Positions 4,344 through 10,757 of a stretch of DNA of 64,000 bases are shown here, piece by piece. How positions within the stretch are numbered: the stretch's first letter is position 1; each line of letters opens with the position of its first letter. This DNA is from Haloplanus rubicundus (lineage in GTDB: Archaea > Halobacteriota > Halobacteria > Halobacteriales > Haloferacaceae), in NCBI RefSeq assembly GCF_003342675.1, contig NZ_CP031148.1, positions 186,001 through 250,000 on the forward strand, in the 5' to 3' direction. Below the pieces are notes generated by a model. It had not been told where the DNA came from. It was given only the letters and a program-made list of their open reading frames with translations, and did no database searches. Made by a program: the position numbers and the translations under genes.

Positions 4344-5138
4344 TTACGTCTGGACCGCCAGCCGTCGAACGCCGGTCACGCCCAGTTCGCGGCTCCGCCA
4401 GCCGTCGCCCGCGTCGGCCAGTAACGTCCCCGTCTCGGTCACCGCTACCGTCGCCGCGTCGGTGTAGCCCACGTCGACGAGGCCGTCGACGGGGACGGGC
4501 ACGTCGACGGGCACCCACTCGCCGACCGCCTCGCGGACGAACAGCCCTCCCTCGCCGGCGGCGTGGGCCCGGTCGTCGGCCGAATCCGCGCTCACGACGC
4601 CGAACGCACCGTCGCGTTCGACCATCCAGCCGTTGCCCAGTCGGTACAGGCCGTCGTCGGTCGCCGCGAGGGGCATCCCCCGCCCGTGAACGTCGTGGAC
4701 GCCGTCGAGGCCGACGTTCCGGAGGTCGTCGCCGACGACCTGGTGGACGCCGCTCTCGGCGGCGATCATCCCGCCGTCGACGGCGCGGGGCGCCTCCACG
4801 TCGCCGAGCGTCGTCCACCCGTCGCCGAGGCGGGCGATCCGACCGTCCGGGCCGGCTGCGAGGAGGGCGTCGCCGTCGAAGCCGACGGCGACGGCGGGAC
4901 CGAAGTCGGTCGGGTCGTAGTCGCCGACCAGTACGTCCGCGTCGGTGGCGACGGCGCGCCGGTCCCCGGCGGCGGCCACGTCGCGGGCGGCCGCCCGGTG
5001 GTCGAGGCCGAACTCCCCCACTCGGTCGTCGGAGAGCGACACGGCCACGACGCCCTGGTCGGCGGCGATCAGCACCTCGTCGGCCCCCGTCCGGTCGGCG
5101 TAGACGCGCTTCTCGTCGATGGTCAGGTCGTGGTCCAT
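4344..5138 (-). CDS. HVO_0234-like beta-propeller protein
   Basis: 264 residues made of repeated short units such as GDGWTTLGDVEAP, GNGWMVERDG and GDGWRSRELG, each followed by hydrophobic strands. This is the look of a WD-like or Kelch-like beta-propeller. From memory, the family represented by Haloferax HVO_0234 sits beside prs, and it does so here. There is no signal peptide and no catalytic motif, so a cytoplasmic scaffold or sensor is most likely. The constant neighbourhood suggests a link to PRPP or nucleotide metabolism, but that is inference. Confidence 0.75.
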   Translation of the reverse strand: MDHDLTIDEKRVYADRTGADEVLIAADQGVVAVSLSDDRVGEFGLDHRAAARDVAAAGDRRAVATDADVLVGDYDPTDFGPAVAVGFDGDALLAAGPDGRIARLGDGWTTLGDVEAPRAVDGGMIAAESGVHQVVGDDLRNVGLDGVHDVHGRGMPLAATDDGLYRLGNGWMVERDGAFGVVSADSADDRAHAAGEGGLFVREAVGEWVPVDVPVPVDGLVDVGYTDAATVAVTETGTLLADAGDGWRSRELGVTGVRRLAVQT

Positions 5139-5180: not shown

Positions 5181-5876
5181 CTACGCCTCCGGCGACGTCG
5201 CCCGCCGTGCCCGAACGTGGTCGGTGAAGTTGTCGAACAGCCGCTTGGTCCGGCAGGCCGCCGCGTAGTTGTCGGCGTCGATGTCGTCGACGACGGCCTC
5301 GATGCGCTCCGCGGGGAGGTCCTTCCCTCGCGTGACGCGTTCGGCGCTCTCCTCGTCGTACTCGGGATGGAACTGCACGCCCCAGCAGTCGCCGCGGCGG
5401 AACGCCTGCACCCCGCGGTCGTTCTCGGCGAGGAGCGTCGCGCCGGTCGGCAACTCGACCACGCGGTCCGAGTGGGTCTCGAAGGCGGTGAAAGGGTCGT
5501 CGAGGCCATCGAGGAGGGGGTCGCCGTCGTCGACCCGGTCGATCAGTCGATATCCCAACTCGATGTCGGCCATCGCCTCGACGCGGCCGCCGAGCGCCTC
5601 GGCCAACACTTGGTGGCCGTAACAGACGCCGAGGATCGGCAGCCCGCGGTCGGCCGCCTCGGCCACCCAGTTCACGAGGCCGTCGATCCACGGCTCGTCC
5701 CAGTAGACCGAGGAACTCGACCCGGTGACGACGACGCCGTCGAACGCGAAGTCGGACGGCAACTCGCCGGCCGTCACGTCGAACTCGGCGAGGGCGGCGT
5801 CGAGCTCCCGGCGGAAGTTCGGGCGCGTGTGTTCGGAGCCGTGCGAGGCGTCGAGGAGGGCGAGCCGCAGGGTCAT
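5181..5876 (-). CDS. Class I glutamine amidotransferase-like protein
   Basis: 231 residues with the full class I triad: nucleophile Cys in LGVCYGHQ about residue 104, His and Glu in QFHPEYDEE about residue 174. It resembles the stand-alone GMP-synthase-like amidotransferase group that includes GuaA N-domains and gamma-glutamyl-hydrolase-like proteins. Such enzymes release ammonia from glutamine or cut gamma-glutamyl bonds. No synthetase partner is adjacent, so the acceptor is unknown. The minus-strand neighbours on both sides are close, but the gaps (about 35-40 nt) allow separate promoters. Confidence 0.85.
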   Translation of the reverse strand: MTLRLALLDASHGSEHTRPNFRRELDAALAEFDVTAGELPSDFAFDGVVVTGSSSSVYWDEPWIDGLVNWVAEAADRGLPILGVCYGHQVLAEALGGRVEAMADIELGYRLIDRVDDGDPLLDGLDDPFTAFETHSDRVVELPTGATLLAENDRGVQAFRRGDCWGVQFHPEYDEESAERVTRGKDLPAERIEAVVDDIDADNYAAACRTKRLFDNFTDHVRARRATSPEA

Positions 5877-5909: not shown

Positions 5910-6722
5910 TTACGCTGATTCGAAGAAGCCGAACAGTCGGTCGTTCACCGCGCGGGAGCGCTCGACCCCGATCAGGTGCCCGCCGTCGAGGCCGACGAAC
6001 TCCCCGCGCGGCAGATTCTCGGCGAGGCGGCGGCCGTACTCGACCGGCCACACCGCGTCGTCGCGGCCGTGCAGGACGAGCGCCGGGGTGTCGATTTCGT
6101 ACAGCCGATCGGTGACGTCGAAGGCCTCGACGGCGGCGGCCTGGGCCGCCCACGCCTCGCGGGGGGCGTCCTCGGCGGCCCGCCACTCGACGATTTGCTC
6201 GATGGCGTCGGGATGGGCGTCCAGAAAGTCCCGCGAGAGCGCGGCCGCGAGCGACGATTCGAGTGCGTCGGGGTCGTCGGGTGCCCCGAACAGGGGGTCG
6301 AGCGTCAGGTCGGCGCCGACGGGCGCGGTGCCGAGGAGGGCGAGCGACCGGGGGCGCGTCGAGAGTCGGGCGAGTTCGAGCGCGACCATCCCCCCGAGTC
6401 CCGCGCCGACGACGTGGACGCGCCGGGCGCCGTGGTCGTCGAGGACGGCCTGCACGTCGGCGACGAAGTCGTCGACTGCGTAGGGACCCGGCGGGGCGTC
6501 GGAGCGGCCGGCGCCCCGGAGGTCGGTCACCAGCGTCTCGAACGGCCCGGTCAGGCCGGCGTGTTGCCACCCCCACTGCCAGGCGCCGTACCCCACGTCG
6601 CCGAGGAAGACGACCGTCTCGCCGTCGTCGGCCCGTGGCCGACTGCTCGTGGAACGGTGTTCCACGCCGTCGTCGTCGGTCTCGTAGTACAGCGACACGG
6701 CCCCGTTCGATGCGGTGGGCAT
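5910..6722 (-). CDS. Alpha/beta-hydrolase-fold protein with Gly at the nucleophile position
   Basis: 270 residues with clear fold landmarks: oxyanion-side FLGDVGYGAWQW near 40-50, DLRGAGRSD near 67-75, acid-loop LVLHGRDDAVWP near 215, and a C-terminal His in LDGGHLIG near 248. The nucleophile elbow reads VVGAGLGGM at 104-112; the Ser of the usual GxSxG is Gly108 (codon GGA, 6399-6401). The acid and His are kept. The protein is therefore either a non-hydrolytic member, such as a cofactorless dioxygenase or binding protein, or a family with a shifted nucleophile. It is monocistronic or at the end of its cluster. Confidence 0.8.
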   Translation of the reverse strand: MPTASNGAVSLYYETDDDGVEHRSTSSRPRADDGETVVFLGDVGYGAWQWGWQHAGLTGPFETLVTDLRGAGRSDAPPGPYAVDDFVADVQAVLDDHGARRVHVVGAGLGGMVALELARLSTRPRSLALLGTAPVGADLTLDPLFGAPDDPDALESSLAAALSRDFLDAHPDAIEQIVEWRAAEDAPREAWAAQAAAVEAFDVTDRLYEIDTPALVLHGRDDAVWPVEYGRRLAENLPRGEFVGLDGGHLIGVERSRAVNDRLFGFFESA

Positions 6723-6774: not shown

Positions 6775-7023
6775 TCAGTAGACGCGGGCGACGAGAAGCA
6801 CCAGTCCGATCACGACGGCCCCGAAGCCGATGAGCAGCAGGCCGCCGCCGTAGGCCAGCGACGGCAGATCTACCGGAGAAGCCCCGCTCAGGAGGTCGAG
6901 CAGCGTCAGCTCGCGGAACAGCGATCCCCCGGGGAGGGAGACGCTCGTGAGCGCCGCGACGCCGAGAGCGAGGAGACCGGCGACGGTCAGGATCGACACT
7001 CGGGAAGCGGACGACGACTTCAC
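6775..7023 (-). CDS. Small two-helix membrane protein
   Basis: 82 residues from a GTG at 7023 (VKSSSASR). Two hydrophobic segments, LTVAGLLALGVAAL near 14-27 and GGGLLLIGFGAVVIGLVLLVA near 60-80, are separated by a polar loop. No family recognised. It lies between the hydrolase-fold gene and alaS on the same strand. The start is uncertain because the frame stays open upstream, but the region upstream lacks a hydrophobic or coding character. Confidence 0.55.
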   Translation of the reverse strand: MKSSSASRVSILTVAGLLALGVAALTSVSLPGGSLFRELTLLDLLSGASPVDLPSLAYGGGLLLIGFGAVVIGLVLLVARVY

Positions 7024-7124: not shown

Positions 7125-9893
7125 TTACGCGTTCCGGATCGCCCGGAGCACGTCGGGAGCGTCGTCGAGGGCGTCGTCGAGGGCGTCCACCTCGGGGCCG
7201 CCGCCCTGCGCGAAGTCGGGGGGGCCGCCGCCGCCGCCGCCGACCTGTGCCGCGAGGCGTCCCACGACGTCGCCGGCGTTGATGTCCACGTCGTCGGGGA
7301 CGCCGACGACGAACTGGGCGCTCCCACCCTGGGCACTCCCGAGGACGGCCACCGCCCCCTCGTCGACGATGGCGTTCGCGGTGGCCCGGAGTTCGTCGGC
7401 GTCGGCGTCCATCCGCCGGATCACGGCGCTCACGCCGCCGACGTCGACCTCGTCGGCGTCGGCCGCGGCCGCGCGCACCTCCGCGAGTTCCTCCTTCAGG
7501 CGGTCGATCTGCTTGCCCCGCTCTTTCCACTCCTCGAAGAAGCGTTCGGCCGTGTCGGGCACCTCCTCGGGCGACACGTCGAGGACCTCTGCCGCCTCGT
7601 AGAGGGCGTCCTCCGTGCGCTGGGTCGCCTCGATGGCCGCCTCGCCCGCCGCGAAGACGATGCGCTCGACGCCGTCTTGGATCGGCTCCGTTTTGAGGAT
7701 CTTGATGGCGCCGATGTCACCCGTCTGTGAGACGTGCGTGCCGGCACACGCCTGCACGTCGTCGTCGACGTGGATGAGGCGGATCTGCTGGCCGGGGGGG
7801 ACACCCCCCTGATACAGGTCGAAGCCGTGTTTCGCCTCCGCCTCGTGGCGATCCGGCCACTCCTGGGTGACCGGGCGGTTGTCCGTCACCACCTCGTTGG
7901 CGACGCGCTCGATTTCTTTCACCTCCTCGCGGCTGATGCGCCGGAAGTGTCGCACGTCGAGGCGGGACTGGTCGGTCCCCTTCTGGGCGCCGGCCTGTCG
8001 GACGTGGTCGCCGAGGACCTGCCGCGCGGCGTAGCCGATGACGTGGGTCGCCGTGTGGTGGCGCATCAGGCTGTAGCGGCGCTCGGCGTCGACCCGACCG
8101 CGGGCGAACTCGCCTTTGCCCGGATTGCCGTCCGTGCGGTGAAGGACCACGCCGTCGCGGCGCTGTACGTCTGTCACCTCGACCGTCGTCTCGTCGGTCG
8201 AGAGGGTGCCCGTGTCGGCCGGTTGCCCCCCGCCTTCGGGGTAGAACATCGTCTGATCGAGCACGACGTCGTAGCCGTCCTCGCGCTCGAACACGTCGAG
8301 AACGACCGCTTCGAACTCCGTGCGCTCCTGGTCGTCGTAGAACAGGCGGTCGGTCTCGGGCAGGTCCGCGAGGCGGTCGTCGCGGTCGGCGGCCGCCTCC
8401 GACGCCCCTTCGCCCTCGTGTCGCGCCGCGACCAGCCCGTAGAAGTCGTCGGGCACGTCGACCCTAGCGCCGTGGTCCCGCGCGATGTCGGCGACCATGT
8501 CCGGCTGGATGCCGTGGGAGTCGTAGAGTTCGATCAGCGTCTCGCGGGGGATGGGTTCGTCGCGGGCGGCGTACTCCTCCGCGATGCTCTCGACCTTGCG
8601 GGAGCCGCGTTCGAGCGTCTTCCGGTACTTGCCCTCCTCGGTCCGCACCATGTCGCGGATGGTGTCGCGGTTGGTGTAGCCCAGCCGTTCGGCCTGCATG
8701 TCGACGAGTTCGTCGAGCGGCGCGTCGATACCCAACCCGTCGACGAGGCGCTTGGTCCGCCGGAGCACCATCCGCGCCAGATAGCCCGTCCCGACGTTCG
8801 AGGGGACGATGCCGTCGCCGAGCATATAGGCGAGGGTTCGACAGTGATCAGCGATGGCGTAGATATCCTCGAGGGGTTCGAGCAGGGCCGAGAGACGCGC
8901 GGCGTCGACGCCGAGTTCCTCGGCCACCTGGGAACGCGCCGACGCGAGGTCCTCGACTTCGTCGATGTCGAGATAGCCCGAGAGGCGGGCGGCCTCGCGG
9001 ATGAGTTCCTCCTCCTCCGCGGAGTGATCGATCCCCGCGTGGTCCGTGAGGAAGTCGATCATCTCGGGGTAGATGGCCTCGTAGACGGTGGGGGTCCCCT
9101 GACTCATCCACGTCCACCGCTCCAGCCCGTAGCCCGTGTCGACGATGTAGGTGTCCATCGGGCTGTAGCGGTTGCCGTCTTTCATCTCGTACTCGCCGTC
9201 GGGGTCCTGCTCCATCGACATGAAAACGAGCGTGGCGAGTTCGAGGCCGCGGTAGATCACCTCGAACGCCGGGCCGGCGTTGCCCCCGCCCACCCACGGA
9301 TCCTCGATGTAGGTGACGTCCGCGGGGTCGACGCCCATGTGCTCGAAGAAGCGGTCGCAGTACTCGACCGTCTCGTCTTTCCAGTACACCTCGCCCTCGT
9401 AAGCGTAGTCGTCGGCGGCGTCCTCGCGGGTGTTGAACGCGTGGTGGGCCATCATCTCGAAGGCCATCGTGTGCCGGCCGGTCTTGCCCACGTTGTCGAT
9501 GTCCTGCATCCGGATGCAGGGCTGACTGATCGTCAGGGGGTTCGCGGGCGGCGGCGTCTCGCCCGACGTGACCAGCGGCTGGAAGTCGTAGATGGACGCC
9601 TGCGTCAGGAGGACGTCGTCACGCCAGCGGTTCGCCGCGACGGGGTAGGGATCGATGCGCTCGTGGCCGTTGTCCTCGAAAAACGAGAGGAACGCCTCGC
9701 GCATCTCCTCCAGCGTGTACGCCTCGTCGAAGCCCGGATTGCCGATGAACGCGTAGTCGTCACAGGGCGGCTCGCCGCAGGTGTCGCGCTCGACGCGCGA
9801 CCAGAAGTGTGCGCCACAGGAGGCACACTCCTGTCGAGTGAACCCCTCCTCCTCGAAGTAATCGAGGCGATAGGCGTCTTCGAGTTCGCTCAT
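7125..9893 (-). CDS. alaS: Alanyl-tRNA synthetase (archaeal type)
   Basis: 922 residues from ATG 9893 ([10 protein letters not shown]). It charges tRNA-Ala and edits Ser/Gly-tRNA-Ala. The N-terminus carries the archaeal-type Cys cluster C23, C26, C39, C44 before the class II catalytic core. The editing domain has HHTATH near residue 612 and CAGTH near residue 715, the zinc-binding HxxxH and CxxxH pair. A Gly-rich DHHA1-like C-terminus (a run of six Gly after AAQV) precedes the end AIRNA. The frame continues upstream of 9893 but that part lacks AlaRS content. Normal length for archaea. Confidence 0.97.
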
Positions 9894-10005
9894 TACCACC
9901 TCATTGGCCCGTCTCCGCGTAAAACAGTTCCGGGACCGCTGACTCGGGCGTGATCGACCGATGGCGACGAGGCGCTCATCGATCGTCGACGACGGCGGCC
10001 CCGGC

Positions 10006-10014
10006 GAATATATG
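10006..10014 (+). promoter_or_regulatory. TATA box of the DUF429 gene
   Basis: GAATATATG centred 28 nt upstream of the ATG at 10038, the spacing of a leaderless haloarchaeal promoter. Confidence 0.55.
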
Positions 10015-10037
10015 TCCGTCACGCCCCTCCCCTGCCC

Positions 10038-10757
10038 ATGACAGCCGTCGGCGTCGACTGGGCGAGTGGGTGCTGGGTCGTCGTCGTCCACGAGGGAGAC
10101 GACGCGACCATCACGACCGAACCGGCCATGCTCAACGTGTGGCGCGAGCACGGCCGCGGGGCCGACGCCGTCCTCGTCGACATCCCCATCGGCCTGCCGG
10201 AGACGGCCCCCCGCGCCTGCGACCGGGCGGCCGCCTCCCTGCTCGGCGAGCGACACAGTTCGGTCTTCGACGTGCCCTGTCGCGCGGCCGTCGACGCCGG
10301 CGGCTACGAGGCGGCGCGAGCCGAGAACGGCGGCCGTCTCGGGAGTCAGAGCTGGGGCCTCGTCCCACGAATCCGCGAGGTCGACTGCTTTCTCGACGCC
10401 CACCCCGCGGCCGAGGCGCACGTCTACGAGAGCCACCCCGAGGTGTGTTACGCGGCGTTCGCCGCCCGGACGGACGCCGACGACCCCGGCTCGAAGCGAG
10501 AGACCGAGGGACTGGACGCGCGGCTGGCGATCCTCGACGCCGTCGACGAGGCGTTCGGCGCCGCGGTGCGTGCCTTCGTCGAGGACCGGCGCACCGGCCC
10601 GCAGTGGCACCACCGCATCCAGTCCGGACGCCTCGACGACGTCCTCGACGCGGCCGTACTCGCGCTCACGGCGAGAGGGGGATCGTTCGGCGTCCTGCCC
10701 GCAGGTCGGGACGCCGACGACCGGCAGGTGATCGTCTACCCGGACGACGGGGCGTGA
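10038..10757 (+). CDS. DUF429 protein (predicted RNase H-fold nuclease)
   Basis: 239 residues beginning [11 protein letters not shown]; the early GVDWA and [11 protein letters not shown] (about 50-60) acidic motifs match the DUF429 family, which is predicted to have an RNase H-like fold. Other typical segments are [14 protein letters not shown] and [11 protein letters not shown]. The C-terminal [11 protein letters not shown] segment resembles the last acidic helix of the fold. Enzymatic activity has not been settled for this family as far as I know. Stand-alone gene with its own TATA box, converging on the RFC gene 10 nt away. Confidence 0.85.

Follow-up and report, generated by a model that had tools for sequence, protein, structure and literature searches.

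What can a protein of the alpha/beta-hydrolase fold do once its nucleophile is gone? The question is raised by a gene in a 64,000-nucleotide stretch of the genome of Haloplanus rubicundus (NZ_CP031148.1, positions 186,001 to 250,000), which is referred to here as the window. The gene occupies positions 5910–6722 of the minus strand, begins with ATG, and encodes a protein of 270 aa that was assigned to the fold from its ORF, by Pfam, and by an AF2 model. As noticed in the sequence-only reading of this locus, the elbow has the sequence VVGAGLGGM, and Gly108 (codon GGA, positions 6399–6401, read directly from the sequence) occupies the position of the nucleophile. The acid and the base of the triad, recognized in the same reading from the motifs GRDDAVW and DGGHLIG, correspond to Asp222 (positions 6057–6059, context HGRDDAVWP) and His249 (positions 5976–5978). 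With these two residues, the window protein has the acid and the His of a canonical Ser-hydrolase; the G-x-Nuc-x-G motif with Ser, Cys, or Asp as the nucleophile is absent from it and from all 86 analyzed rows of its clade. A further departure was found in the HG oxyanion motif: in place of its Gly, the small residue preceding the oxyanion NH, there is Asp42 (codon GAC, positions 6597–6599; sequence and alignment). All four codons are on the minus strand. With the nucleophile gone, the earlier caution that the annotation “hydrolase” would mislead is supported.

The superfamily assignment of the window protein is firm. Pfam Abhydrolase_1 matched with 66.2 bits (cut-off 25.8), and Abhydrolase_6 was also above its own cut-off. 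Among the matches listed for curated families (25 of 27 families), only three general Pfam models exceeded their cut-offs. Structure prediction, proposed earlier as a check, gave a confident single hydrolase domain (pLDDT 94.5, pTM 0.92); the model of a Ser-bearing paralogue reached a pLDDT of 93.1. In fold searches, the model aligned over nearly its full length with the esterase Est1 (6eb3; Z 35.6, rmsd 1.7 over 252) and with the 3-oxoadipate enol-lactonase PcaD (2xua; Z 35.3, rmsd 2.1 over 251), its nearest solved relatives by both sequence and fold. These differ from it in being Ser-type enzymes and share 25–30% identity with it. A PcaD function was rejected, the score against NCBIfam TIGR02427 (126.3 bits) being far below the cut-off of 255.85. 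No natural nucleophile-less protein was among the matches listed in the fold searches, which excludes nothing. In the open-access literature that was searched, no publications were found on the protein family, its neighbors, or the likely Haloferax locus tag of this gene, tentatively HVO_0207.

Homologues bearing Ser at position 108 would have reduced Gly108 to a point change in one strain or an error; Gly was found in 86/86 rows of the orthologous clade and Ser only outside it, in the sister paralogue clade and in more distant homologues. The first set of homologues was drawn from 60 related genomes, 56 of which gave matches, and comprised 70 loci picked by match score and not by residue 108. 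In its tree, the rows separated into three groups, namely 48 with Gly, 15 paralogues with Ser, and 7 distant rows with Ser, every group being set off by a single branch (support 97/97, 98/95, and 99/98, respectively), and position 108 was Gly in 48/48 clade rows. The wider alignment of 234 rows had 185 Gly (161 distinct sequences), 48 Ser, and 1 Glu in the nucleophile column. Eighty of the 185 Gly rows were found via two patterns, one containing the Gly, and this part of the sample is biased towards Gly; these 80 named loci were the best 80 of 243. Dropping rows more than 80% identical as well as two short rows (L208 and L233) left 86 Gly, 41 Ser, and 1 Glu; 30 of the 86 Gly rows come from the named loci and 37 from the unbiased first set. 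Apart from the two short rows, every Gly row outside the tree was more than 80% identical to a Gly row within it. Masking the nucleophile column did not break up the 86 Gly rows, which were still separated from the rest by a branch (SH-aLRT 99), with no Ser row among them. The 42 remaining rows, comprising the sister paralogue clade and distant homologues, had Ser in 41 cases and Glu in one (Ser in 25/26 dereplicated rows of the sister clade and in 16/16 more distant rows). The column can be accounted for by two changes, the first between Ser and Gly and the other to Glu within the Ser clade. The distant rows suggest that Ser is the older state. The single Glu belongs to L230 (genome G203), a Ser-clade paralogue with the elbow GAEMGG.

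Within Haloplanus, codon 108 was GGA, GGG, GGC, or GGT, always encoding Gly. Since the codon varies while the residue is constant, and Gly is clade-wide, a strain mutation or a sequencing error is ruled out. The gene is under purifying selection, as pairwise dN/dS values against the window gene were 0.13–0.27 in 13 Haloplanus comparisons. With the threshold set at E 1e-40, a class-wide search matched 358 of 391 genomes, the Ser paralogue being counted too. When 30 genomes were re-searched, chosen because even their top match ranked among the weaker ones, the best hit was a Ser protein in 8 and a Gly protein in 22. When the search was widened to the phylum, each of the eight matching genomes whose label gave no closer kinship than the same phylum yielded a Ser-bearing protein.

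Elsewhere in this genome, outside the window, another hydrolase-fold protein (L245/L246, G000:C2:2703039-2703944; Pfam Hydrolase_4) also has a Gly elbow, WGFGLGGG. Gly was present in 12/12 genomes of the genus, the window's own included; five relatives from other genomes had Ser in two cases and no clear elbow match in three. This protein may represent an independent Ser-to-Gly change.

The clade is defined not only by Gly108 but also by an acid at residue 42, which is an addition to the sequence-only reading. Asp or Glu was found there in 79/86 clade rows (Asp 59, Glu 20) and in 177/185 of the full set of Gly rows vs. 0/42 others (Fisher p 8e-27 if the rows were independent, although they share kinship). 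The other rows had Gly at this position in 25/26 Ser paralogues and 16/16 distant homologues. Seven of the 86 clade rows had Thr, Ala, Ser, Pro, or Val at residue 42, with Gly108 and His249 retained. By alignment, residue 42 would take the place of the Gly in the HG oxyanion motif and would thus stand just before the second oxyanion residue. Residues flanking the second oxyanion residue are reported to contact the ligand often in this fold (PMC7034887). Besides residue 42, the Gly and Ser clades of haloarchaea are told apart at sites such as 108 (Gly/Ser), 109 (Leu/Met), and 131 (Gly/Cys). With the sister clade of Ser-bearing paralogues (elbow GASMGG), the Gly protein has in common the cap residues W180, R181, D185, and A186 and the Trp-rich helix with W48, W50, and W52; neither clade shows any variation at R181, D185, or W48.

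In the window, the Gly108 gene is followed on the same strand, after 33 bp, by a gene for a class-I glutamine amidotransferase-like protein (positions 5181–5876, minus strand; Pfam GATase 80.4 bits, cut-off 22.8) with an intact C85-H170-E172 triad. Upstream, also on the same strand, is the alaS ORF for alanyl-tRNA synthetase (positions 7125–10613, minus strand; Pfam tRNA-synt_2c 407 bits, tRNA_SAD, and DHHA1), the conserved part of which begins at an internal Met. A small protein of about 74 aa, probably membrane-embedded, is encoded between alaS and the Gly108 gene (positions 6775–6999, minus strand, start codon not fixed); a similar sequence was found in 9/12 Haloplanus loci (L001–L009) and in L072. 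Positions 4344–5138 of the minus strand encode an HVO_0234-family beta-propeller protein (PF23366) adjoining a ribose-phosphate diphosphokinase gene.

The usual gene order is alaS, the Gly108 gene, and the class-I glutamine amidotransferase gene. The last was downstream on the same strand in 72 of the 80 named loci (best 80 of 243), within 300 bp in 42; alaS matches were present in the upstream flank, on the same strand, in 69/80, the nearest matched piece being less than 1 kb away in 36. Matches covering the amidotransferase site, some of them from duplicate loci, had Cys in 132/132, His in 130/130, and Glu in 130/130. Its best matches among solved structures were a class-I glutamine amidotransferase (7d54), GMP synthases, and gamma-glutamyl peptidase 1. 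The data do not support a strict partnership: the amidotransferase also occurs in genomes without a match to the Gly108 protein family in the class-wide search, and genome G081 has a clade member and no amidotransferase at E 1e-15.

In 25 of the 80 named loci, a gene for an AMP-binding, adenylate-forming protein comes after the Gly108 gene (e.g., L091:10833-12152); these loci belong to two Haladaptatus and otherwise to what we take, from record titles, to be Natrialbaceae. In the 23 of these 25 loci that have the amidotransferase, the AMP-binding gene sits between it and the Gly108 gene. AMP-binding proteins usually have a Ser/Thr-Gly-rich P-loop and a Lys near the C-terminal end. The P-loop was altered from this motif in 25/25, and Pfam scans of five of the proteins showed the C-terminal domain in two and none in three; both proteins with the domain had Glu where the Lys is expected. 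To judge from these motifs, the AMP-binding protein looks like a second pseudo-enzyme. The wider neighborhood of the 80 loci included acyl-CoA dehydrogenase in 12 (one Pfam-checked), an Fe-S electron-transfer protein in 24, and ferredoxin in 11; the latter two were named from the sequence by eye, and their occurrence was too scattered for use. The Haloferax alanyl-tRNA synthetase dealt with in the consulted part of PMC5198076 is a different gene, AlaS2 (hvo_2717).

The remaining dyad is mostly, but not strictly, retained. The Asp222 position was Asp in 84/86 clade rows and Ser in 2/86 (one change), the His249 position was His in 78/86 and Arg in 8 (at least three changes), and both residues were present together in 76/86. 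One or the other was lost in 10/86 clade rows vs. 0/42 others (Fisher p 0.03 on the assumption of independent rows, which does not hold); the sister clade had His and Asp in 26/26 rows, along with Ser in 25/26 and the oxyanion-motif Gly in 25/26. The four Asp-to-Ser loci represent the same locus as the window gene, because the amidotransferase (L196, L197, and L206, 58–62 bp downstream) or alaS (L200) adjoins. Among the seven His-to-Arg loci with flanks, the amidotransferase adjoined only in L187, and no alaS match was found within the 1.5-kb flank; in the eighth (G051), the amidotransferase was about 1.7 kb downstream. Diverged copies may therefore be present among the His-to-Arg rows, and dyad loss is a weaker argument for that reason. 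Co-variation of residues 249 and 42 was unsupported: 8/8 Arg249 rows have acid 42, an outcome with a chance of about one half given 79/86 acidic rows.

Hydrolase-fold proteins without a nucleophile are already known, DPP10 and NDRG3 (PMC7022630) among them. According to PMC4350108, human DPP10 (DPPY, S9B) has Gly651 in place of the catalytic Ser and Asp568 in place of the oxyanion-hole Tyr, its His-Asp hydrogen bond is intact, and it is enzymatically inactive; restoring the Ser does not bring back activity, and the protein modulates a partner. The haloarchaeal protein resembles it in the Ser-to-Gly exchange, the retained His and Asp, and an Asp in the oxyanion region, and might resemble it as a non-enzymatic modulator. 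This likeness is taken at the level of fold and active site. DPP10 is a human membrane glycoprotein with a beta-propeller, whereas the haloarchaeal protein is a single hydrolase domain of 270 aa; Asp568 corresponds to Tyr547 of DPP4, and its comparison with residue 42 is one of kind, not of position. NDRG2 and NDRG3 are likewise non-enzymatic hydrolase-fold proteins with a substituted triad, but in the account of PMC7022630 no triad residue is retained in them and the site is blocked by helices. For the window protein, no match to Pfam Ndr was listed at E up to 10, in a search where HMMER filters drop weak matches.

We consider it the best explanation, with a probability of roughly 0.6, that these proteins are a conserved haloarchaeal pseudo-hydrolase which lost its nucleophile once and which most likely binds a ligand in the old pocket, as a binding or regulatory protein. 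An ancestral Ser-His-Asp hydrolase would have been duplicated, and one copy would have undergone a single Ser-to-Gly loss of the nucleophile and a Gly-to-Asp/Glu change at residue 42 in the oxyanion turn, with the fold, the cap residues, and the Trp-rich helix retained. The usual acyl-enzyme route would then be closed and hydrolysis presumably lost; indeed, acyl-enzyme chemistry is very unlikely because the nucleophile is absent and a carboxylate stands in the oxyanion turn. A small ligand may occupy the former active site, where residue 249 (His or Arg) could serve as the cationic partner of Asp222, of Asp/Glu42, or of both through a putative salt bridge. The role would be binding or regulatory, perhaps exerted on the neighboring amidotransferase as a candidate partner. 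This reading is favored because DPP10 is the best parallel. It builds on the observed substitutions, purifying selection, confident predicted fold, and synteny, and on the one change to Gly in the masked tree, with the same grouping in the first-set tree. Dyad loss in 10/86 rows, the clade-specific acid 42, and the invariance of R181, D185, and W48 also appear to favor it. Counted against it are the complete dyad in 76/86 rows, which goes beyond the needs of a pure scaffold, the loose amidotransferase link, and the His-to-Arg rows that are maybe diverged copies.

The sequence-only reading had described a His-Asp pair without Ser as typical of cofactor-less dioxygenases or of proteins adapted to binding; the binding option fits better, and the dioxygenase option is weakened. 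HOD, with Ser101 at the elbow (Ala in its relative AqdC), needs only a His-Asp pair, its base His251 acting with Asp126, 25 residues after the elbow (PMC10548524). The dispensable nucleophile and the presence of a His-Asp pair are the common ground with the haloarchaeal clade, which differs in its Gly elbow (Gly108 instead of the Ser or Ala of HOD-type dioxygenases), its later acid Asp222, and a dyad that is not strictly retained. By sequence offset, the position 25 residues past the elbow (133) was acidic in 0/86 clade rows, position 134 in 1/86, and position 135 in 6/86. Cofactor-free oxygenation of the HOD kind thus seems a poorer fit than binding or regulation. More generally, it is rather unlikely that the protein is catalytically active with no nucleophile and with His249-Asp222 as the general base, be it a lyase, a water-activating hydrolase, or such a dioxygenase. 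The 76/86 members with both dyad residues, the sufficiency of the pair in HOD and AqdC, the space that a Gly elbow would give to O2 or water, and the possible status of several His-to-Arg rows as diverged copies speak for it. It is hard to reconcile with Arg for His in 8/86 rows and Ser for Asp in 2/86, the latter at the conserved locus, or with an acid in the oxyanion turn, which should disfavor an oxyanion.

Chemistry could instead have been relocated, with Asp/Glu42 replacing the lost Ser as the nucleophile or base and acting together with His249. The confinement of acid 42 to the clade (79/86 vs. 0/42) as well as the frequent ligand contacts beside the second oxyanion residue (PMC7034887) would suit this proposal. 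A putative likeness is the Glu that dienelactone hydrolase may have close to its nucleophile in the same turn, which the literature consulted did not show. The proposal is nonetheless improbable: in seven of the 86 rows, residue 42 is not an acid, and the His-to-Arg rows have the acid but no base. We give equally little weight to a variant in which Asp/Glu42 would face His249 across the space freed by Gly108 and form a new catalytic or ligand-clamping center. If true, haloarchaea at large would have an enzyme of the hydrolase fold whose nucleophile or base has moved to a new site, and the degenerate-looking AMP-binding protein would hint at a pseudo-enzyme complex around a live amidotransferase in Natrialbaceae and Haladaptatus. 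A structural passenger without a ligand, retained for folding or complex formation only, is hardly probable. That Gly at a nucleophile elbow relieves strain and that the dyad is partly lost speak for it; the conservation of R181, D185, W48, and mostly of acid 42 goes against it.

Automatic annotation would call this protein a hydrolase in many haloarchaeal genomes. The clade is a natural experiment, combining a single loss of the nucleophile, the gain of an adjacent acid, and a piecemeal loss of the dyad with an intact paralogue as the control, and it offers a prokaryotic parallel to the paired active-site changes of human DPP10. The gene row of alaS, pseudo-hydrolase, and amidotransferase is testable in genetically tractable hosts such as Haloferax.
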